A DNA stretch of 64,000 nucleotides from Citricoccus sp. CH26A (GTDB lineage Bacteria; Actinomycetota; Actinomycetes; Actinomycetales; Micrococcaceae), in assembly GCF_000224415.1 (NCBI RefSeq), contig NZ_AFXQ01000006.1:62001-126000 (forward strand), in the 5' to 3' direction. Below are positions 36,866 to 56,299 of the stretch, piece by piece. The notes beneath the pieces were generated by a model, which had not been told where the DNA came from, did no database searches, and saw only the letters and a program-made list of their open reading frames with translations. Each line of letters opens with the position of its first letter. Position 1 is the first letter of the stretch. The translations under genes and the position numbers were made by a program.

Positions 36866-36922
36866 GCGGATGGTAAGGGATTCGAACCCTTGGCACGGGG
36901 TTACCGCACACTGGTTTTCAAG
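36866..36922. repeat. attL: displaced 3' part of tRNA-Ser(TGA)
   Basis: 57 bp match positions 56211-56267 with a single difference (A at 36908, G at 56253). It is the 3' half of tRNA-Ser(TGA) on the minus strand, from the anticodon loop to the acceptor end, with no 5' half. This is the scar left when an element integrated in the tRNA gene and replaced the 3' end with its own copy. Confidence 0.93.
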
Positions 36923-37476: not shown

Positions 37477-38220
37477 TCAAGGGAGTGGGAAGCGCTTAAT
37501 CACCATATCGGCCAGCGACGTTGTCCGACTGTCGATGTCATCGGCGGTCCAAGAGTCTCGCGTGGCGAGCTCGGTGTTCAGCGAGAGATTATTGCGGTAT
37601 CCGATGAACCTGCCCTTGGAGTCCTGACGGTCGCGCTTCTCCATAAACGACTTATTACCAAGGTTGCTGTTGTAGGCGGTAATGGTGAGGTTACCGAGTC
37701 GGTGCCGGTGCTCCTCTTGAACCTGCATGGCTGCCTCTGGGCCCCCGAGCATCTCCTGCCACGCGGATGGCAAGTTCTCGCCCTGCGGAAGGATGTGCTC
37801 GATCGTCCAGACGAAATGGTTCTTCTCCTGACGCCACAGGTCCACCTTCGTCTCCTTGGTCATGGCATCCTCGGCCAACGTTGCGAGTACGAACCTCGTT
37901 ACGTCTGTGTTCTCCTCGTAGATCCGCCCCACCAGGCGCGCCCGGAACTCTTCGTCCGACGCCGAAACAGAATTTAGACGTTCGCTGACGACCGCCAGGA
38001 CCTCATCACCACGGGCATTACCCACAGCGTCGATAGTGGTCATGAACAGCTTCGCGAGGGCATACGTGGGTGGGTACCCCGTCAAGTTACGCCGGACGAA
38101 GAAGCTTGTCAGGCGATCAACGGCCGTCTCAACTTGCTTGTCGGTCAGTTCCAGTTCGGACTGCTTAGACATCAGCCACATGATCAGCACATACGAGGGC
38201 GCACCCTGGGCACGCATCAA
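37477..38220 (-). pseudogene. GmrSD-type (DUF262/DUF1524) restriction protein, 5' truncated by an IS
   Basis: About 248 codons remain. The C-terminal DUF1524 nuclease motif is intact: VWTIEHILPQGENLPSAW followed by RLGNLTITAYNSNLGNKSF, the HNH-like pair of this family. Upstream is only the end of the DUF262 helical region; the N-terminal NTP-binding part that should precede it is missing because an IS3 element starts at 38221. The ATG at 38220 is an accident of the junction. Full-length relatives are type IV restriction enzymes that cut modified phage DNA. No remainder of the gene was found on the far side of the IS, so a deletion accompanied or followed insertion. Confidence 0.85.
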
Positions 38221-40751: not shown

Positions 40752-40973
40752 CCTTCCAGCAACGCCTCACAGCGTCACAGATCAGATGTCACCTATTCGT
40801 GCAGCAGTCCCTATTGCGGTGCACGATGTCTTCGCGTCCTCAGCCCATGGTGATGCGTTGATCAATCACCATCTGTGTTCCAAAGGTCGAAGCGAAACGG
40901 CGGCGGATCCATTTGAGTCTGCTGGTCGCCACGCGGGCACGCTCACGTGTCGAACCGTGAGAATATCCATGTC

Positions 40974-42674
40974 ATGACGACGTCCAAGGTTGTTGCCCGA
41001 GTCCTCGATGGACACCGACTTGAATGCGTGGTGACGCCACCTCAGGGTCAGTCCCTGACGCTCTCGGGCGCGGCGACTGATCCGATTCCCCAGTTCGAGA
41101 AGTCTGGGCTCGGAACCCACGCGTTTCTCGTGGACCATGCCTGGGCTTACGCATTGTCCAGGTTTCAGGCCGTTAACCTGCCGGACCTCGGCCAGCAGAA
41201 GAACGCCGAGAAGCGAGCCGAAGAGGCGAGGAAGATCACCGAGTGGGTGGCCGACCTTGCCGACGATCTCTCGGACGAAGAGAAGTTCGGGTGGTGTTCT
41301 GCTTGCATCAAGCAACAAGGGCACCGCAAGGTGAAGCAGCCCGTCGGTCAACTGCCTGCCTACCTCTGCAACGGATGTGGTACCCCAACGTGGTCTTGCG
41401 CCGGAATCGGGTGTAAGAACATGGCGGTTCGCGACCGGACCGCCTTAAAGATGCAGCCCTATTGTGCGGAGCATCGACACGACATTCCCGGTTTCGCCAA
41501 GGCCGATAGCGAGCTGGCAGCGCTGAACGAGTATGAGGAGTTCCTCGCGTACGACAAACCGAACTTGGCACGTAACGCCAAGATCGCAGGCGCTGTTGGC
41601 GCCGGCGTTGCCTTGGCGACGCCACTCGCCTACTTCGGTGCCCCCGTCGTCGGGGGCGCGATCGGGGCGATGGTCGGCGGCTACTCGGGGGCCGCGGCCA
41701 CCAGTTTCGGTCTCGCCCTTCTGGGGGGAGGATCACTGGCGATCGGCGGTTTAGGGATGGTCGGTGGCACCTATGTGGTCGCCGGTCTGGGTGCTGCCCT
41801 GGGCGGAAGCCTGGGGGCCTCGGTCATGAACGCCTACGTCCAGCAGGACAAGTCCTTCCACATTGAGATGCTCAGGGGGGGTACCGGCATTCCTGTGGTG
41901 GTCTGCAATGGGTTTCTCAGCGAAAGTGGCAAGGGCTGGGGCGAGTGGAAGGACATTGTCACCCGCCGATACCCGGACTCTCCCGTCTACCGCGTCCACT
42001 GGGGTGCCAGGGAACTTAGACACCTGGAACTGCTTGGAGGTAACGGGGCTGCAGGCGCTTTCGGGATAGCGGCCCTCAAGAATGCCGCAGCAAGGGCAGC
42101 CAAATCGGCCGCGATAAAGATCAACGCGGTCGCACCGGCGCTGATCGCCGCGGACCTGGCGAAGAACCCCTGGCACGTCGCCAAGAACCGTGCAGACAAG
42201 ACCGGCGTCATCCTCGCCGACCTGTTGGCTCGGACCGATGAGGAGTCCTATGTGCTGATCGGGCACAGCCTGGGCGCGAGGGCGATGGTGGTCACAGCCC
42301 AGACGCTGAGCACCAAACCTGGTGGGCCACGCGTTCACGCGGCGCACTTGCTCGGACCTGCCATCGGCGCCAAAAGCGACTGGCACTCGCTGACGGCCAC
42401 GGTTGATGACGCGGTGTACAACTACCACTCCAAAATGGACGATGTCCTTAAGTACGTTTATCCGGCTGCACAGGCGGGACAGACCCCTGCCGGATACAGC
42501 GGATTCGAGCCCGCGGTGGACCGGTTGAAGAACGTTGACGTGTCAAGCATCGTCAAGTCGCACCATGACTACCACCACAACGTATACCTGGAGAAAGCCG
42601 CATCCCCTGATGAGTCCGATCCAGGGCGGCCCGGCGGCACAGCACCTGAAGCCTCGGTTTCAGCTGATGCCTGA
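40974..42674 (+). CDS. DUF726 membrane alpha/beta-hydrolase with zinc-finger-like N-terminus
   Basis: 566 aa from ATG 40974 (GTG 40947 is an in-frame alternative; neither has a clear ribosome site). Residues ~108-165 hold four CxxC/CxxH-like pairs (WCSAC, LCNGCG, SCAGIGC, YCAEH), probably zinc ligands. Residues ~203-292 are Gly/Ala-rich hydrophobic helices. The C-terminal domain is an alpha/beta hydrolase with VVVCNGFLS, nucleophile Ser432 in GHSLGARA, and a late His region (HHDYHHN). This is the DUF726 family, known from fungal and animal TMCO4-like proteins and scattered in bacteria. Activity is unproven; a lipase-like or membrane-damaging effector is possible. Codon use is less GC-rich than in the chromosome. 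It sits in the island beside a broken restriction gene. Confidence 0.8.
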   Translation: MTTSKVVARVLDGHRLECVVTPPQGQSLTLSGAATDPIPQFEKSGLGTHAFLVDHAWAYALSRFQAVNLPDLGQQKNAEKRAEEARKITEWVADLADDLSDEEKFGWCSACIKQQGHRKVKQPVGQLPAYLCNGCGTPTWSCAGIGCKNMAVRDRTALKMQPYCAEHRHDIPGFAKADSELAALNEYEEFLAYDKPNLARNAKIAGAVGAGVALATPLAYFGAPVVGGAIGAMVGGYSGAAATSFGLALLGGGSLAIGGLGMVGGTYVVAGLGAALGGSLGASVMNAYVQQDKSFHIEMLRGGTGIPVVVCNGFLSESGKGWGEWKDIVTRRYPDSPVYRVHWGARELRHLELLGGNGAAGAFGIAALKNAAARAAKSAAIKINAVAPALIAADLAKNPWHVAKNRADKTGVILADLLARTDEESYVLIGHSLGARAMVVTAQTLSTKPGGPRVHAAHLLGPAIGAKSDWHSLTATVDDAVYNYHSKMDDVLKYVYPAAQAGQTPAGYSGFEPAVDRLKNVDVSSIVKSHHDYHHNVYLEKAASPDESDPGRPGGTAPEASVSADA

Positions 42675-43101: not shown

Positions 43102-43677
43102 CTAGTGTCTCGGGAGCATGTCCTGGAGGGTGAGTTTCGGCCGCCCCTTGGACCCGTCCTCGTACCCCTCCACGTATCCAGCCATCTGCGCCATGGCGGT
43201 CAGGTAGTCGACGTCCTCACGCCGGGCCATCTGATCCGCAGCGTCCATGTGCCCTTTTTCGTACCCGTAGCGGTAGGCGTGCCGGACTCCGGAGGTCTCC
43301 AGTTCGGTCCGTAACTTCTCGGCTTGTTCTTCCGAGGCTGCGAGGGCGGACACCAGCAGGGCATTCGAGCGCACCGTCTTGTCCCACATGGTGGCGTACT
43401 GTTCCGCTTCCTGGGCCGCGTCTGCCGCCCTTGACTCGGCGCCCTGCAGCTGGACCTCCAACAGGCGCCGATCGTCCTTCAGAGACCGCACCTGAGCCCG
43501 CAGCTGGTCCACTTCGGACTTCTCGAGGACCGACCGGCACCGGGCCCGGTAGGCCGCTTGGCGGTGCGCGTCGGAGCAGTACCGCCGGCCCATGGACGGG
43601 TCCGTCAAGGGCTGATCACACCACCCGCAGCGGACGGCGAGAGGACGACGGGGAGAGGAGCGGCGGGCCTTAGCCAT
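43102..43677 (-). CDS. Zinc-ribbon/coiled-coil element protein, intact copy
   Basis: 191 aa. The N-terminus has CGWCDQPLT...RRYCSDAHRQAAYRAR, a small CxxC...CxxxH zinc motif seen in actinobacterial element and plasmid proteins. Residues ~50-125 are a strong coiled coil (LRAQVRSLKDDRRLLEVQLQ, EQYATMWDKTV). The C-terminal part has YRYGYEKGHMDAADQM and a short TLQDMLPRH tail. Function is unknown; DNA-end or plasmid-maintenance roles are possible. A second copy with ~80% protein identity lies at 45840-46414 but is frameshifted, so this may be the working gene. No ribosome site stronger than AAAGGGAACC precedes the ATG. Confidence 0.75.
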   Translation of the reverse strand: MAKARRSSPRRPLAVRCGWCDQPLTDPSMGRRYCSDAHRQAAYRARCRSVLEKSEVDQLRAQVRSLKDDRRLLEVQLQGAESRAADAAQEAEQYATMWDKTVRSNALLVSALAASEEQAEKLRTELETSGVRHAYRYGYEKGHMDAADQMARREDVDYLTAMAQMAGYVEGYEDGSKGRPKLTLQDMLPRH

Positions 43678-45839: not shown

Positions 45840-46414
45840 CTAGGGTCTCGGCAGCAGGTCCTGGATCGTCAACTTCGGACTGCCCTTCTCGCCTGCCGCG
45901 TACCCCTCCATGTATCCGGCCAGCTTCGCGTAGGCGGTCAGTTCGTCGACGTCCTCCCGCCGGGTCATCTGGTCTGCGGCGTCCCTGTGCCCTTTTTCGT
46001 ACCCGTAGCGATAGGCATGCCGCACGCCCGTCGTCTCCAGCTCGGTCCGCAGCTTCTCGGCTTGATCTTCCGAGGCTGCGAGGGAGGACACCAGCAGGCC
46101 ATTGGACCGCACTGTCTTCTCCCACATAGTGGCGTACTGTTCGGCTTCCTCGGCCGCGTCTACGGCCCTTGCCTCGGCGCTCTGCAGTTGGACTTCCAGC
46201 CGGCGCCGGTCGTCTTCAAGGCTCGCACCTGTGCCCGCAGCTGCTCCACCTCGGACCCCTCGGGGACGGGCCGGTGTCGGGCCCGGTAGGCGGCCTGGCG
46301 GTGGGCGTCCGAGCAGTACCGCCGGCCCCCGGAAGGGTCCGTCAAGGGCTCATCACACCACCCGCAGCGGACGACGAGAGGACGACGAGGAGAGGAGCGG
46401 CGCGCCTTGGCCAT
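45840..46414 (-). pseudogene. Zinc-ribbon/coiled-coil element protein, frameshifted copy
   Basis: The N-terminal part (MAKARRSSPRRPLVVRCGWC... to VRALK) and the C-terminal part (from the coiled coil to TIQDLLPRP) are in different frames. Compared with the intact copy, one base is missing in CGTCTTCAAGG near 46213-46220. The two copies are otherwise collinear. Either the gene is dead or the base is a sequencing error. Confidence 0.8.
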
Positions 46415-46600: not shown

Positions 46601-46741
46601 CGGACCCCGCGCCCAGTCCGGGACGCGCCCTTCCAGGGACGGCGGCAGGGCGGCGTCCACGGACTGACGGACCCACGCTCGGCGGGCCCTGCGGACCCGA
46701 CGGCCAGAGGCCCGGAGGGACCGACGAAACCGGCGCAGCAT
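46520..46741 (-). CDS. Small membrane protein, translationally coupled to the sigma-like gene
   Basis: 73 aa. The first ~45 residues are very basic (RRFRRSLRASGRRVRRARR), and the last ~23 form one membrane helix ending LLGWLLLLALITL. Its ATG overlaps the sigma-like stop as TGATG, so it is made only when that gene is translated. It is a possible membrane partner or anti-sigma-like anchor; no known family was recognised. Copy A at 43.9 kb keeps just the helix. Confidence 0.6.
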   Translation of the reverse strand: MLRRFRRSLRASGRRVRRARRAWVRQSVDAALPPSLEGRVPDWARGPRGRVLLSALAVVVLLGWLLLLALITL

Positions 46742-47565
46742 CACAGGTCCCCGGGGAACAGCTGGTCTTGGTCGGCGGCGGGCCAACCCTTGTATTGGAA
46801 GGCCCACGCTGCGGCGCGGGCCAGGACCCGGATCCGTGACCAGTACTGGCGGACGGTATTGCGCGGTGTCCCAGTGATGCGAGCCAGGGCGTGCGCGTCC
46901 ACGGCCGTGACGCCCCCAGCGCGTTGGGCTGCGCCGAGGTACACCGGTGCGTGCCGGCCGATCGCGCTGGGCACGCTGGCTACCGTCGCCACGATGGACG
47001 GCGCGTCCTCGGGCGCCTCCAGTGCGGCGCGGATCACCTGCGCCAGGGCGACAACGTCACGGGAAAGGGACCGCAGGGAGTTGACGGAGACGCCGAGGGC
47101 TGCGCTGGCCGCCGTGGTGTCCCCGTCGTAGACCAGATGCAGGCGCAGAAAGGTCTCCACCCGTCCGGCGTCCATGCCGAGAGCATCCTGGACCAGGTGC
47201 AGCACGCCCAGCACCTGCCGGAGCTCGTCGGCGGCGTCCACGCGCCCGGTGTCGTCGTCCACGCAACCATGGACGGCTGAGTCTCCTTGTGTGGCGGTGA
47301 GGGCTTCGAGACTGTCCGCTTTGCCGCCGTTGCACTGGGAGCCGTTGCTGGCGGTCTTGCGGTAGTAGTCATGGACCCGGCGCCGGGCCACCACGCGGCA
47401 CAGGGTGGGCCAGTCCCCGCGGTCCGGGTCGAACTTCACCGTCTGGAGGGAGAGCCAGGTCTCTTGGAGCAGGTCGTCGATGTCGTGCGCCGGTCCGCCG
47501 TACTGGCGGACCATGGCGGTAATGACGGGGCGGAGGCGGTCGAGGTCTACCTGTGTCGTGGTCAT
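46741..47565 (-). CDS. Sigma-70 family-like protein of the element
   Basis: 274 aa. Residues ~8-72 resemble sigma region 2: VITAMVRQYGG, DIDDLLQETWLSLQTV and WPTLCRVVARRRVHDYYRK. The middle has a helical segment with a HTH-like GDTTAASAALGVSVNSLRSLSRDVVALAQ, and the C-terminal part has another (ALARITGTPRNTVRQYWSRIRVLARA). A clear ECF region 4 is not present in the usual place, so it may be a sigma-derived regulator. It overlaps its neighbours on both sides (4 bp ATGA with the 103-aa gene, TGATG with the membrane gene), placing it in the middle of the element operon. Confidence 0.7.
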   Translation of the reverse strand: MTTTQVDLDRLRPVITAMVRQYGGPAHDIDDLLQETWLSLQTVKFDPDRGDWPTLCRVVARRRVHDYYRKTASNGSQCNGGKADSLEALTATQGDSAVHGCVDDDTGRVDAADELRQVLGVLHLVQDALGMDAGRVETFLRLHLVYDGDTTAASAALGVSVNSLRSLSRDVVALAQVIRAALEAPEDAPSIVATVASVPSAIGRHAPVYLGAAQRAGGVTAVDAHALARITGTPRNTVRQYWSRIRVLARAAAWAFQYKGWPAADQDQLFPGDL

Positions 47566-47873
47566 CGGGTGGTCTCCTTCCGGATGGCCCGGACGATGTG
47601 CTGCTCGGCTGCGCGCTGAGCGCGTCGGGCGATGCTGAAGTGTTGGTTCGCGGCCCGGTCGAGAGCTCGCAGATCGCGGCTGGGGGTCCAGCAGCCGAGG
47701 CCCGTCATGCCGTGCCCGGCGAGGGCTTGCGCCTGGGCATCGGTGGCGGAGGTGTCCGCGGCGTTGAGGGTGTGCAGCAGGTCGCGGGTGCGGTGTTTCA
47801 GCGACTGGATCGGCAGGGGCGTGACGGTGGCCAGCAGCGGCGGCTGCATGGCTGGGGGCTTGTGGGTACTCAT
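47562..47873 (-). CDS. Hypothetical element protein
   Basis: 103 aa, soluble and mostly helical, with no recognised family. ATG 47873 overlaps the stop of the initiator-like gene (ATGA), and its own stop overlaps the start of the sigma-like gene in the same manner. An upstream ATG at 47897 is less likely because of this coupling. The C-terminus is basic (RRAQRAAEQHIVRAIRKE), compatible with nucleic-acid binding. Confidence 0.6.
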   Translation of the reverse strand: MSTHKPPAMQPPLLATVTPLPIQSLKHRTRDLLHTLNAADTSATDAQAQALAGHGMTGLGCWTPSRDLRALDRAANQHFSIARRAQRAAEQHIVRAIRKETTR

Positions 47874-48640
47874 GCCGCGGTTTCCTTCGGTTGCCACCCG
47901 CCGAGCGCGGCCGCGGTGATGACCTGACGGCGGACGGAGCAGTTCGGGCCGAGCTCGGCCGCGGCCTGTTCCATCAGGGCCAGGTGCTGCATCGGTCGGG
48001 CTTGGAGATAAGCACTTGCGGCTGCATAGATCTCCGTGTCGATTCCGTCTGCCGTCTGTGCGCCGAAGTTTTCCACAGGCGCTGGTGAGGGTGGCTGGGA
48101 CTCAACCAGTTCCTCCTGCCTGTATTCCTCTAGTGGTTCCTCAGTCCTCATAGGGGGCACCGTTTCGGTGGGGCTCGACCCACCGTTTCGGTGGGGCTGC
48201 TGGGGCACCGTTTCGGTGGGGCTCAGGGGCACCATTTCGGCGGGGCTGCGTTGCGGTCTGGGGTCAGTCCTGTGGACAACTGCCCAGGTGGTGACGGGCC
48301 GCCCGGTGCCGCTTCGGGTGATCGTCGGGGTCGCCGTCGTGTTCGGGTCGAGGGTCAGGGCGTATTCGGCTCGATTACCATGGCGCGCTGCGCCATTGGG
48401 GACGATGGCGCCTGCACGCTTCAGGCTGGCCGTTACCCGGCGGAACTGTTCGGCCGCGCTATCCGGGTTGGCTTCGGGATCGAGGCCGAGATGCCGGGCA
48501 CCGACTTGCCAGCCACCGAAGTAGACCGGTGGCGTGCCGGCGTCCAAGGAAACCAGCGCCATGAAGGTCAGCAGACGGTGGTCGCGGTGGCCTAGGTGCT
48601 TCCAGTAGTGCGAGACCAGCAGCGCGTTGGAGGCACCCAT
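47870..48640 (-). CDS. Replication-initiator-like winged-helix protein with internal iterons
   Basis: 256 aa from ATG 48640, which has GGGAG about 9 bases upstream (GTG 48670 is in frame but lacks one). The N-terminal ~110 residues (LLTFMALVSLDAGTPPVYFGGWQVGARHLGLDP, then a second helix pair) resemble the winged-helix domain of small replication or replisome-organiser proteins of actinobacterial elements. A Pro/Thr/Glu-rich linker with SPTETVP repeats and a C-terminal helical domain follow. The linker is encoded by four near-identical 18-bp repeats (separate entry). Replication role is inferred from fold, iterons and position next to xis/int, not from a clear family match. Confidence 0.6.
   Translation of the reverse strand: MGASNALLVSHYWKHLGHRDHRLLTFMALVSLDAGTPPVYFGGWQVGARHLGLDPEANPDSAAEQFRRVTASLKRAGAIVPNGAARHGNRAEYALTLDPNTTATPTITRSGTGRPVTTWAVVHRTDPRPQRSPAEMVPLSPTETVPQQPHRNGGSSPTETVPPMRTEEPLEEYRQEELVESQPPSPAPVENFGAQTADGIDTEIYAAASAYLQARPMQHLALMEQAAAELGPNCSVRRQVITAAALGGWQPKETAA
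48158..48247. repeat. Four iteron-like 18-bp repeats inside the initiator-like gene
   Basis: CACCGTTTCGGTGGGGCT begins at 48158, 48181 and 48206, and a variant with two changes begins at 48230; spacing is 23, 25 and 24 bp. Each has a CACCG-TTT-CGGTG dyad. Because spacing is not a multiple of three, copy 2 is translated in another frame (QPHRNGG) than copies 1 and 3 (SPTETVP), so conservation is for DNA and not for protein. Confidence 0.8.
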
Positions 48641-48683: not shown

Positions 48684-48935
48684 TCACGCCGTCACCCCCA
48701 AAATGCCGAGAGCCACGACGACGGCGTCGAGGTCGTCGCGTAGGTCACGAGCTGCGGCGAGGCTGTGCCCACCGGCGGCATCCTCCCGGACCACCACCTC
48801 CACGTCCCGGTTCGGCGTCCAAATGGAGTAAACCTCCCCGGACTGGGGGCCGTAAGCGATCCGGCCGCCCGGGTCCAGGGTGAACCCGGCTGGCGGGTCG
48901 ATACACGGAAAATCGCTCGCGCTAGAATGGGTCAT
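48684..48935 (-). CDS. Small hypothetical element protein
   Basis: 83 aa with no recognised family; contains an acidic, leucine-rich C-terminus (RDLRDDLDAVVVALGILG). ATG 48935 is preceded by AGGAGTCAGGATCC, giving a good ribosome site. It is second in the leftward element operon, between the excisionase and the initiator-like gene. Confidence 0.6.
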   Translation of the reverse strand: MTHSSASDFPCIDPPAGFTLDPGGRIAYGPQSGEVYSIWTPNRDVEVVVREDAAGGHSLAAARDLRDDLDAVVVALGILGVTA

Positions 48936-49075: not shown

Positions 49076-49282
49076 TCAGACACTCCTAGGTTCTCCGGCC
49101 AGAAAAGCCTCAAGCTCAGACCGGCTGACAAGCTTCTTTCTGCCTAGCTGCAGCACGCGCACGGGGAACTCGCCGCGCGCGGCCAGCTCGTAGGCCGTGC
49201 TTTTCCCGATGCCGAGCACGCGGCCGGCATAGGGAAGGCTTACTGTCTGCTGTTCGGGGCGTGCCGTACTTTCGATGCTCAT
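49076..49282 (-). CDS. xis: Excisionase / AlpA-type helix-turn-helix protein
   Basis: 68 aa with a MerR/excisionase-like winged helix: VSLPYAGRVLGIGKSTAYELAARGEFPVRVLQLGRKKLVSRSELEAFL. Such proteins bend DNA at the attachment site and direct the integrase to excise. It is divergent from the XRE repressor, with a 115-bp control region between them, as in temperate elements. Confidence 0.85.
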   Translation of the reverse strand: MSIESTARPEQQTVSLPYAGRVLGIGKSTAYELAARGEFPVRVLQLGRKKLVSRSELEAFLAGEPRSV

Positions 49283-49397: not shown

Positions 49398-50060
49398 ATG
49401 GCACTACTGACAGATGAAGGCATCGGCCGCGCTATTCAGGCTGGCAGGCAGCGTTTGGGGATCCTTCAATCGGAACTGTCTGAGCGCCTGGCGATTCAGG
49501 GGCTGGTCTGGTCTCAGGCCACGATCTCCAAAGTCGAGCGAGGGGACAGGCCGGTTAGGGCCACCGAGATTCCGGCCATTGCGCAAGCTCTAGACATGGA
49601 CGTGTCGGATCTATTCACGCCATGGGAAAGTGGCCTCCAACTCCGCTTGCAGGAAGCGACCAAGCAAGTGCATCAACTCGATCAAGAACTCAAAGAGATC
49701 GGGGAGGAGTACATCCGCGTGAAAGCAAAGATGCGGGAAGTTGACGCAGCTCTCGGGACGGCGGGCGATCGCGCACAGGCGCTTCGTCTGCTGATCGATT
49801 TCACCCATGGCGCGACAAACGTCGAATGGGTCTCGTGGAGCGCTGAGGCGCTCGTGTCCTACTGGACCAATGCCTTCCAGCCCCCGCTGGACCTCGGGGA
49901 GCTTGCTGCGCAGTTGGGTGAGCACCGCGTTGGATCAGTGGATCAAGACAGGGTCATTGACCTCGAGAAGATATTTCCTCATGTGAGATTCGGTCACTCC
50001 GGCAAGGACGACGTCACGGATGAAAATCAAGATCTGATCGCGGGTCGGAGGAAGTCATGA
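49398..50060 (+). CDS. XRE-family repressor of the element
   Basis: 220 aa. Residues ~8-75 are a Cro/cI-type helix-turn-helix (GIGRAIQAGRQRLGILQSELSERL ... SQATISKVERGDRPVRATEIPAIAQAL). Residues ~85-120 are a coiled coil (LQEATKQVHQLDQELKEIGEEYIRVKAKMREV). The C-terminal region is unrecognised and lacks a Ser/Lys LexA-type protease dyad. It probably represses xis and the leftward operon and also its own gene. Its stop overlaps the int start by 4 bp (ATGA), so repressor and integrase are made from one message. Confidence 0.82.
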   Translation: MALLTDEGIGRAIQAGRQRLGILQSELSERLAIQGLVWSQATISKVERGDRPVRATEIPAIAQALDMDVSDLFTPWESGLQLRLQEATKQVHQLDQELKEIGEEYIRVKAKMREVDAALGTAGDRAQALRLLIDFTHGATNVEWVSWSAEALVSYWTNAFQPPLDLGELAAQLGEHRVGSVDQDRVIDLEKIFPHVRFGHSGKDDVTDENQDLIAGRRKS

Positions 50061-51367
50061 AGGGGCACGTGTGGAAGCGGTGCCCGTGCCAACCGGAGGA
50101 GTTGCCTCGGGGACGGGACGGGCGACCGCTGGCGTGCAAGCGGCGTCACGGTACCTGGTCGTACAGGTTGGATGCCGGCCCGGATCCGGTGACGGGGAAG
50201 CGACGACGGCCTTCCAAGGGCGGCTATGTAACTCGTGAGGAAGCCGAAGCAGCGCTGTCAGACGCCATGGCCGCGGTGGGGGCCGGCACCTGGACGGATG
50301 ACCAGCGGCAGACCGTGGGGGAGTACCTGGACCGTTGGCTGACGCGGAAAGCAGCGGGGCTGAAGCCCACAACGGTGGACACCTACCGGTCGCACATCGA
50401 GCTGCACATTCGGCCGGAGCTTGGCCGACTGAAGCTGCGCGACCTCCGGCCCGAGCACGTCTACGCCATGCTCCAAACCGTAGCGGAGGGCCGGAGCGCG
50501 GCCATGGTGCACCGCGTGCGGGCCACGCTGCGCACGGCGCTGGCGGCTGCCGTGAAGGAACGTTTGCTGTCGTGGAATCCGGCCAGAGATCTCGACATGC
50601 CGCGGGAGGCGCGAAAGAGGGTCGAGCCATGGACGCCGGAGGAGACCGGAGCGTTCCTGGACGCGGTGGCCGGGGACCGGCTGGCGGCGCTCTTCCATGT
50701 CGTGGCGTACCTCGGGTTGCGGCGGGGAGAGGCGCTGGGGCTGCGCTGGGATGACGTCGATCTGGTGCGCCGCCGGGTCGTCATCCGTCAGCAGGTCGTC
50801 CAGATGAACCTTCAGTCGGTCGAGGCTAGCTGTCAGTACTGCGGAGAAGCGCACCCGGGGATCGGGATCACGGAGCCGAAGACGGACGACAGCGCGGCCG
50901 TGGTGCACCTGGATGCCGGGACCGTGTCTGTGCTGCTGTCCCAGCAGCTGGCGCAGGGCGAGGAGCGGGAGGCATGGGGGGACGCATACCGGGACCACGG
51001 GCTGGTGTTCGCCCGGGAGGACGGTGCGCCGATCCGGCCGAGTTGGCTCACTGCGCGGTTCTTGGAGCTTCAGGAGGGTGTGACCGTCCCTGTGAGCGCG
51101 GAGGACCCGGAAGGCACTCAGCGGCCGCTCAGGCGCGTCCGGCTGCATGATCTGCGGCACGGCACGGCGTCCCTGATGATCGCGGCCGGCGTGGACGTGG
51201 CCGTGGTGTCCAAGGTGCTGCGCCATTCGACGATCAAGCTCACCGTGGACACGTACGGACACCTGCTGCCGGGGGTCGGCGAGGCCGCCGCGGAGCAGCG
51301 CGCAGGCATGATCCCGCGGGCGGCGTCTCGCACCGATGGCCACAGTTCGGCCAAGAATGGGGCCTAA
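50057..51367 (+). CDS. int: Tyrosine integrase of the element
   Basis: 436 aa. The N-terminal part has a short Cys-containing head and an AP2-like arm-binding domain (GTWSYRLDAGPDP...KGGYVTREEAEAAL), followed by a SAM-like core-binding domain (~90-170). The catalytic domain shows Arg222 (YLGLRRGEALGLRW), His364/Arg367 (LHDLRHG), and Tyr400 (VDTYGHLL). A CQYCGEAHPG insert in the catalytic domain is unusual. It should recombine attP with the tRNA-Ser 3' end. It now lies 4.7 kb from attR, whereas such genes normally abut the site. Confidence 0.95.
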   Translation: MKGHVWKRCPCQPEELPRGRDGRPLACKRRHGTWSYRLDAGPDPVTGKRRRPSKGGYVTREEAEAALSDAMAAVGAGTWTDDQRQTVGEYLDRWLTRKAAGLKPTTVDTYRSHIELHIRPELGRLKLRDLRPEHVYAMLQTVAEGRSAAMVHRVRATLRTALAAAVKERLLSWNPARDLDMPREARKRVEPWTPEETGAFLDAVAGDRLAALFHVVAYLGLRRGEALGLRWDDVDLVRRRVVIRQQVVQMNLQSVEASCQYCGEAHPGIGITEPKTDDSAAVVHLDAGTVSVLLSQQLAQGEEREAWGDAYRDHGLVFAREDGAPIRPSWLTARFLELQEGVTVPVSAEDPEGTQRPLRRVRLHDLRHGTASLMIAAGVDVAVVSKVLRHSTIKLTVDTYGHLLPGVGEAAAEQRAGMIPRAASRTDGHSSAKNGA

Positions 51368-51405
51368 TCGGCCTCGGAGACAAGGGAAGAGGCCCCGCTG
51401 AGCGG
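51290..51405 (+). repeat. 3' end of int duplicated near attR (copy 1)
   Basis: These bases match 56076-56190 with about 85% identity, including the last ~27 codons of int and the left arm of the terminator. Homology stops after GCTGAGCGG at 51405, where the right arm of the hairpin has been replaced by AGCATTCAGG: the terminator of this int is cut in half by the module that follows. Confidence 0.85.
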
Positions 51406-51535
51406 AGCATTCAGGTCCCACGCTAACGCCCGTCGACTTCTCGCGCCCGATGGGGACTGGCTTGGCTGAGCATCCACGACGAGTGGGCCTATACCGGCCG
51501 ACACTGGCCGATCCACGCAGCACCCTACCGAGGTG

Positions 51536-55989: not shown

Positions 55990-56067
55990 CATCTCCCAAG
56001 GCAAGTCCCAAGGTGTTCCGGCAGCGGACAGGAGGCCGCCGCAAGGTGTACAGCAGTCCGTCGCCGC

Positions 56068-56152
56068 GGCTGCCGCGGAGCAACGCGCTGGCATGATCCC
56101 GCGGGCGGCGTCTCGCGCCAATGGCCACAGTTCGGCCACAAATCGGGACTAA
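56068..56152 (+). pseudogene. Remnant of a second, related integrase (C-terminal ~27 codons)
   Basis: Frame reads AAAEQRAGMIPRAASRANGHSSATNRD, against EAAAEQRAGMIPRAASRTDGHSSAKNGA at the end of the intact int. It lies 60 bp from attR, exactly where an integrase gene should end. The rest of the gene is missing; upstream sequence belongs to the metabolic module. It differs from the intact copy at several bases, so it comes from a related element rather than a fresh duplication. Confidence 0.85.
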
Positions 56153-56170
56153 ATGGCCCTGGAGACGAGG

Positions 56171-56199
56171 GAAGCGGCCCCGCTGAGCGGGGCCGCTTC
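56171..56199. terminator. Terminator between int remnant and tRNA-Ser
   Basis: GAAGCGGCCCC and its complement form an 11-bp stem with loop GCTGAGC, followed by CCTTTGTTT on the plus strand. It served the integrase and can also end the convergent tRNA transcript. Confidence 0.88.
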
Positions 56200-56210: not shown

Positions 56211-56267
56211 GCGGATGGTAAGGGATTCGAACCCTTGGCACGGGGTTACCGCGCACTGGTTTTCAAG
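56211..56267. repeat. attR: element-supplied 3' part of tRNA-Ser(TGA)
   Basis: The 57-bp counterpart of 36866-36922. Identity to attL ends in the anticodon loop of the tRNA, which sets the crossover inside this segment. The single mismatch (56253) falls in the variable arm. Confidence 0.92.
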
Positions 56268-56299
56268 ACCAGCTCCTTCGGCCGCTCGGACAACCATCC
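56212..56299 (-). tRNA. tRNA-Ser (anticodon TGA), element integration site
   Basis: 88 bases on the minus strand. Acceptor GGATGGT/ACCATCC with discriminator G, anticodon stem CTGGT/ACCAG around loop CTTGAAA (anticodon TGA), long variable arm (TGCGCGGTAACCCCGTGCC), and T-arm AAGGGTTCGAATCCCTT. The 5' half is chromosomal; the 3' part was brought by the element and keeps the gene functional. Confidence 0.97.

Follow-up and report, generated by a model that had tools for sequence, protein, structure and literature searches.

A putative iteron-type replication origin within an initiator-like gene of an actinobacterial integrative element

Four 18-bp repeats located inside a gene for a 256-aa initiator-like protein of Citricoccus sp. 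CH26A are most probably the iterons of a replication origin; we put the probability of this reading at roughly 0.8. The gene, here called rep, is part of an integrative element, and its product would bind the repeats and melt an AT-richer stretch next to them, the element then replicating as a circle. The window analysed here is a stretch of 64,000 nucleotides (contig NZ_AFXQ01000006.1), and all coordinates refer to it. Arrays of such repeats keep their place and their spacing between homologous genes, independently of reading frame and of the end of the open reading frame (ORF). They are followed by a dip in GC content and an array of AGGA motifs, and the element in the window is bordered by att sites, with empty sites in related genomes.

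The repeat array and the rep gene

The array (48158..48247, minus strand) consists of units starting at 48158, 48181, 48206 and 48230, corresponding to a spacing of 23, 25 and 24 bp (24, 25 and 23 in the direction of rep). Copies 1-3 are identical across all 18 bp and copy 4 deviates at two of the 18 positions. The units are in mixed reading frames, since copy 2 lies in a frame different from that of copies 1, 3 and 4. A chain score, calculated for four 16-mers located 21-28 bp apart, reached 42 of 48 for this array; 60 synonymous-codon shuffles scored at most 36 and 60 dinucleotide shuffles at most 31. The 3.47-Mb genome contains the exact 16-mer at three places, always within the array. Since the score exceeds all shuffles and the 16-mer is found genome-wide only here, the repetition goes beyond what the encoded protein explains.

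A previous sequence-only reading of this DNA had proposed four repeats with an identical copy in a second frame, and the shuffles, the frames and the identity of copies 1-3 confirm both points. Its proposal of a dyad in every unit stands in part: copies 1-3 contain CACCG-TTT-CGGTG, but for the unit consensus the best dyad (6 pairs) does not surpass that of a shuffled consensus (p = 0.40). The helical phasing that it had read from the spacing has to be given up, since 23-25 bp equal 2.2-2.4 turns at 10.5 bp per turn and the units are therefore not phased on one face.

The rep gene (47870..48640, minus strand) encodes a protein with a predicted winged-helix-type N-terminal domain, a linker and C-terminal helices. 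In an AlphaFold model built from 12 sequences (overall pTM 0.49), residues 1-130 form a confident N-terminal domain with a pLDDT mostly near 90, residues 131-197 have a pLDDT below 50, and the C-terminal helices follow. The low-confidence segment is presumably a disordered linker, and it is this segment in which codons ~132-185 encode the array and the tract behind it.

No family was found for the protein in Pfam, NCBIfam or PHROGs, and all 12 members of an alignment of homologues (A1, 12 rows) are without a convincing match in Pfam or NCBIfam. Ten remoter relatives gave weak family matches, the best to a TrmB-type HTH (E 0.0002, below the cut-off). Comparison with the PDB using Foldseek likewise yielded weak matches, MarR-type proteins first and none at E <= 0.001, and the two matches of the A1 profile to sequences of solved structures are at chance level. 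Of the viral models in BFVD, that of an uncharacterised Microbacterium phage Megan protein matches best (E 1.3e-4).

Arrays in homologous loci

The query P0001 had matches in 13 of 295 genomes of the family, including the window's own, and in 6 of 396 genomes drawn from the order, of which two were not new. With A1, matches were obtained in 7 of 394 genomes drawn from the class (three already known), in ten IMG/VR contigs and in five named genome contigs, four of which, to judge from their lengths, were already known and none of which was matched by P0001 alone. The named contigs belong to Arthrobacter horti, Sinomonas gamaensis and three Arthrobacter sp., and these relatives point to the Micrococcaceae as the host family. 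A tblastn search of the phage collection with P0001, L052, L053, L054 and L025 returned nothing, as did one of the plasmid collection with P0001 and L052. From 32 distinct matches three were dropped before counting (G345, which tblastn did not refind; G913, with an ORF unlike the family; and L055, a near-identical copy of L054), leaving 29 distinct loci; L080 and L136, found later, are outside this set.

In 27 of the 29 loci an array clearly beyond shuffles is located in the same place, and in the other two it is weaker. The first unit begins 19-146 nt past the codon of a conserved tyrosine (Tyr93), after the winged-helix-type segment, and 87 of 89 intervals measure 22-25 bp, the array finder having searched spacings of 20-28 bp and permitted 19-29 bp in extension. 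Conservation of repeat spacing and number in homologous elements had been named in advance as a check on the proposal, and the homologues agree with it. Since the finder returns at least three units by construction, the unit number is not evidence in itself; the evidence lies in the comparison with shuffles. The sequences of the units differ between most homologues (e.g. CCCCAACAAAACGTTGGGG, GGGTAGTGGTGACGACTACCC, GGGAACAAATCGTTCCC and GAGCAAAATGCTC) while their place and spacing stay, which makes a mere recent duplication less likely.

Of the 21 arrays lying within the ORF, 19 exceed all 60 synonymous shuffles; those of L026 and L053 were reached by 1 and 4 of 60, respectively (and that of L055, the near copy of L054, by 1 of 60). 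The ORF ends early in the remaining eight loci, where the array straddles the stop codon (four loci) or comes after it (four loci), and in all eight the array exceeds 40 of 40 dinucleotide shuffles. Arrays across or after a stop codon in 8 of 29 loci argue that the repeats serve the DNA and not the protein. As a background, 136 other ORFs of 150-420 aa, called mechanically in the 12 nearest loci, had a mean chain score of 29.2 and a maximum of 37, with three reaching 36; the 12 family genes scored 33-45, nine of them above every other ORF.

A consensus dyad beyond shuffles (p <= 0.05) was found in 13 of the 29 arrays, the window array not being among them. Mantel tests of whether the iterons co-vary with the putative recognition helix were significant, with p values of about 0.001 and 0.0005. 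Iteron similarity correlates less with the putative recognition helix (r 0.24) than with the rest of the domain (0.35), and we therefore claim no specificity code.

The AT-richer tract and the AGGA motif

Directly after the array lies a putative DNA unwinding element (DUE; 48085..48159, minus strand), an AT-richer tract whose 75 nt contain five AGGA on the rep-sense strand. In all 29 loci the GC content over the 40 nt that follow the array is below the local base, and the mean drops to 49-50% directly past the array, the local base being 65-67%. Averaged over the 12 nearest genes, the GC content of 45 nt is 0.50, the means of 300 synonymous shuffles going no lower than 0.563, and codon choice accounts for their dip only in part. 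In single genes the dip was reached by 28 of 300 synonymous shuffles for the window, by 51 of 300 for L028 and by 0 of 300 for L025.

The AGGA motif, often embedded in AGGAACCAC or AGGAATAC, occurs 91 times in the 29 regions of 75 nt and the complementary TCCT once. Dinucleotide shuffles of the same regions contain on average 31.4 AGGA (maximum 47) and random windows from the same loci 8.7 (maximum 16). The 21 regions within ORFs contain 75 AGGA, more than any of 300 synonymous shuffles (at most 44), and the eight non-coding regions contain 16, compared with 2.1 on average and at most 8 in random windows (500 draws). AGGA is present in all three frames (43, 16 and 16), and 43 of 66 gaps between motifs measure 10-13 nt. 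It is found in 25 of the 29 tracts and missing in four.

One DUE pattern matched seven places in 295 genomes, six of which are family loci, and the reversed pattern matched none. In viral contigs it matched two places, one being the further family member L080. A loose AGGA pattern returned 53 viral stretches, none of which encodes the family according to tblastn, and an exact 20-base string had no matches. A third pattern was absent from 297 genomes of the order, a negative that is weak since the tract of the window is itself not matched by this pattern. We also considered the DUE motif as a general host motif, which is not supported: the DUE pattern occurs once in the window's genome, at the array site.

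The seventh place is an orphan AGGA array (L141; G085:C1:2350698-2350723) of five units directly after a gene that by eye reads as ribosomal protein S9. Its 3-kb locus holds no family gene, the best tblastn E value among the matches listed being 0.017. It may be what is left of an element, or the AGGA motif may have another use.

The sequence-only reading had offered a replication origin or an operator for the array. As an autoregulatory operator, the array would be bound by the product of the gene in which it lies, and the operon would thereby be kept from being transcribed. This fits dyad-type sites and a winged-helix-type protein, and initiators often autoregulate. However, the array begins ~390 nt into the gene, and its core has no second site in the window outside the array when up to two mismatches are allowed. 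In addition, an operator needs neither the AT-richer stretch seen in 29 of 29 loci nor the strand-specific repeat seen in 25 of 29. With a core unique in the window and an AT-richer stretch in every locus, the origin is favoured and an autoregulatory operator is unlikely.

The integrative element

The element that carries the proposed origin is ~19.4 kb long and inserted in a gene for tRNA-Ser (TGA; 56211..56299, minus strand). At its left end, attL (36866..36922, plus strand) is a copy of the 3' end of this tRNA and matches attR (56211-56267) to 98% over the 57-bp repeat. Of the seven other genomes of the genus that were searched, three (G034, G082 and G102) have an empty site. There, the left flank (72% identical) directly meets the tRNA-Ser, matched over its full 89 bases, and the right flank resumes ~2 kb further on, the far side of the tRNA being different. 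The integrative nature assumed before finds support in the att repeat with tRNA-Ser and the empty sites of three congeners.

Upstream of rep, a small ORF of 83 aa without family match (48684..48935, minus strand) and an excisionase-like HTH_17/AlpA-like protein of 68 aa (49076..49282, minus strand) are encoded. Divergent from xis-rep are the genes for an XRE-type repressor-like protein (49398..50060, plus strand) and a tyrosine integrase (50057..51367, plus strand). An ORF of 111 aa without family match (47562..47897, minus strand) directly follows rep, and further downstream lies the gene for a sigma-70-region-2 protein of 274 aa (46741..47565, minus strand). A promoter scan gave one weak site. 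Next to attR, a remnant of the 3' end of a second integrase is located (56060..56193, plus strand; 87% to 51275-51408), which suggests the accretion of two elements. This remnant and the IS genes reveal a composite insertion, and the copy in the window may therefore be inactive.

According to Pfam, the 25 ORFs in or at the element include no FtsK-type transfer protein and no ParA/ParB partition family, nor any phage structural, packaging or phage-interference family above cut-off. These results bear on two further explanations of the array. Some relatives of rep are located near phage genes (terminase on the contigs of L050, L052, L054, L056 and L058, portal on that of L054, major head protein on those of L054 and L059; 10 proteins tested), and rep might be a regulator gene of a satellite or phage, with the array as a packaging or transcription-control site. 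The 25 ORFs without a packaging family speak against this, as does the layout of iterons plus AT-rich tract, which is that of lambda ori, and we regard such a function as quite improbable. The array might also be a partition (parS-like) or other nucleoprotein site and not an origin. Repeat arrays can be centromeres, and an extract of PMC7157519 describes a parS locus of five direct repeats adjoining repA in some mycobacteriophages. Here, however, ParA and ParB are missing among the 25 ORFs, and throughout the 29 loci the array is tied to the rep gene with an AT-richer stretch after it, leaving a partition site very improbable. Coding repeats or slippage, that is, a low-complexity linker peptide with incidentally repetitive DNA, would suit the one-frame repeats of some homologues (e.g. 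the first four of five units in L056 and the three units in L029) but is hardly tenable in view of the mixed frames in the window and many homologues and of the 19 of 21 in-ORF arrays that beat every synonymous shuffle, and is already contradicted by the eight loci with the array partly or wholly outside the ORF.

Comparison with known systems

An origin with this anatomy is present in phage lambda, where the O gene contains four annotated 18-bp iterons (intervals 20, 24 and 23; frames 0, 2, 2 and 1) and, 3' of them, an AT-rich and purine-rich 40-nt stretch of 22% GC. The passages on lambdoid phages in PMC7466680 place the origin, consisting of iterons and an AT-rich region, in the middle of O. 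Used as a positive control, lambda O gave a chain score of 41, with a maximum of 32 in 60 synonymous shuffles. The window iterons likewise lie within the initiator gene with the AT-richer tract directly 3'. In contrast to lambda, which has an A-rich tract, the rep family has AGGA repeats in this position; its iterons vary between relatives, and in some the array is located outside the ORF. Comparison of A1 with lambda O using hhalign gave a probability of 0.2%, detecting no homology, and the two ORFs after rep have no match to a helicase loader (P), one of them being sigma-like. By analogy, the window origin may work like lambda ori, the layout of which it shares.

A similar arrangement exists in SPP1. 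The parts of PMC6316719 that deal with this phage describe gp38 as the origin-binding protein, oriL with direct repeats within gene 38 and an AT-rich DUE, and a loader (gp39) and helicase (gp40) of its own. Rep resembles gp38 in layout, having the repeats within its own gene together with an AT-richer putative DUE; unlike in SPP1, the two ORFs after rep are without a loader or helicase match.

Criteria for AICEs, including a transfer protein, are given in the relevant portion of PMC3218068, a study that built its own RepSA profile. Like AICEs (pSAM2 and relatives), the window element is actinobacterial and integrative, and its integrase is accompanied by an att site at a tRNA. It differs from them in that a FtsK/SpoIIIE transfer protein is absent among its 25 ORFs, and the AICE replication families DUF3631 (RepAM) and Prim-Pol are not among these either. 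In PICIs, integrase and repressor are divergent from xis-rep, and the window element has the same arrangement, but unlike PICIs it has no packaging family above cut-off. Among the relatives, L054 and L056 share features with PICIs, having an integrase-like gene, rep and terminase, and L054 in addition has portal and major head protein genes. In the passages considered from the Streptomyces satellite paper PMC10690885, the terms iteron and replication initiat- are absent.

L054 and L056 are IMG/VR contigs of 14-15 kb, on which the integrase-like gene (recognised by eye), rep with its array and terminase lie together; they resemble capsid-forming satellites. Elsewhere, a Prim-Pol gene is located directly upstream of the rep relative (L030), or serine-recombinase-like genes (by eye) lie beside it (L028 and L031). 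Since the contexts range from Prim-Pol and serine-recombinase-like to phage genes, the rep module seems to be common to different kinds of element. Rep is best read as belonging to an initiator family not described so far, in which initiator and origin form a movable cassette, found in integrative elements and on satellite-like and phage contigs. Among the papers listed by full-text searches of open-licence literature, which leaves out most subscription papers and all of bioRxiv, we found no description of the family or its origin; one may exist in other literature.

Proposed mechanism and significance

Excision of the element would come first, followed by origin function. The rep product would bind the four dyad-type iterons via its N-terminal winged-helix-type domain, and the resulting nucleoprotein complex would melt the adjoining AT-richer stretch. 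The strand-specific AGGA repeats might mark the strand that receives the initiator, loader or helicase, and host proteins would replicate the excised circle. Both the iterons and the putative unwinding element fall within the coding region of the presumably disordered linker, in which the constraint on the protein is low. We infer that rep's own product binds the array, that the AT-richer stretch is melted and that the element replicates autonomously in a theta-type mode.

More tentatively, and with somewhat less than even odds, rep represents an undescribed actinobacterial initiator family that moves among integrative elements, satellites and phages as a self-contained cassette of initiator plus origin, with iterons diverging together with the initiator. 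If so, this divergence would keep related elements from cross-reacting. The unwinding element would be the conserved, strand-specific AGGA array, with gaps mainly of 10-13 nt, acting as a single-stranded code for entry that either the initiator or a host loader reads, and the protein sequence of the linker, including a TQEPxEEY-like motif, would be largely a by-product of two DNA codes.

Among actinobacteria, few origins of integrative elements and temperate phages seem to be well mapped; in the sections of PMC7157519 concerned with mycobacterial prophages, an origin upstream of or inside repA is merely suggested. The 29 natural variants provide the anatomy of an origin by comparison alone, namely the bases of the iterons and those of the unwinding element, both being DNA-level signals. 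Minimal replicons can be predicted from them and are directly testable. The DUE pattern, whose seven places in 295 genomes are six family loci and an orphan array, is a signature for finding such elements, and the family lends itself to studying the joint change of an initiator and the sites it binds. In addition, it provides an example in which a conserved 'protein motif' seems to be chiefly DNA signal.

Further genes of the element

The mobile element carries its own sigma-like factor (46741-47565), and relatives of this sigma-70-region-2 protein are present in the two closest loci, L021 and L022, from congeners. The two copies of the integrase 3' end (51275-51408 and 56060-56193) are 4.8 kb apart, with genes for IclR, a citrate/dicarboxylate transporter, a CoA-transferase and an enoyl-CoA hydratase between them.

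PADLOC, applied to seven ORFs, gave one strong match, at 37480-38220, which covers just the C-terminal part of Orf5/HEC-06-type defence proteins, the others being weak. For the gene at 37477-38220 (minus strand), the matches to GmrSD-type restriction endonucleases and to the Orf5/HEC-06 models are confined to the C-terminal part of these; IS genes adjoin it, and it is possibly a truncated defence gene. A DUF726 protein is encoded at 40947-42674 (plus strand), with a weak match to the candidate defence family PDC-M09A (E 1e-5). Two diverged gene copies (43102-43677 and 45840-46414, minus strand), 82-85% identical, flank a gene for a FAD-binding oxidase; by eye they have a zinc-ribbon-like N-terminus, and the second copy reads as two ORFs.
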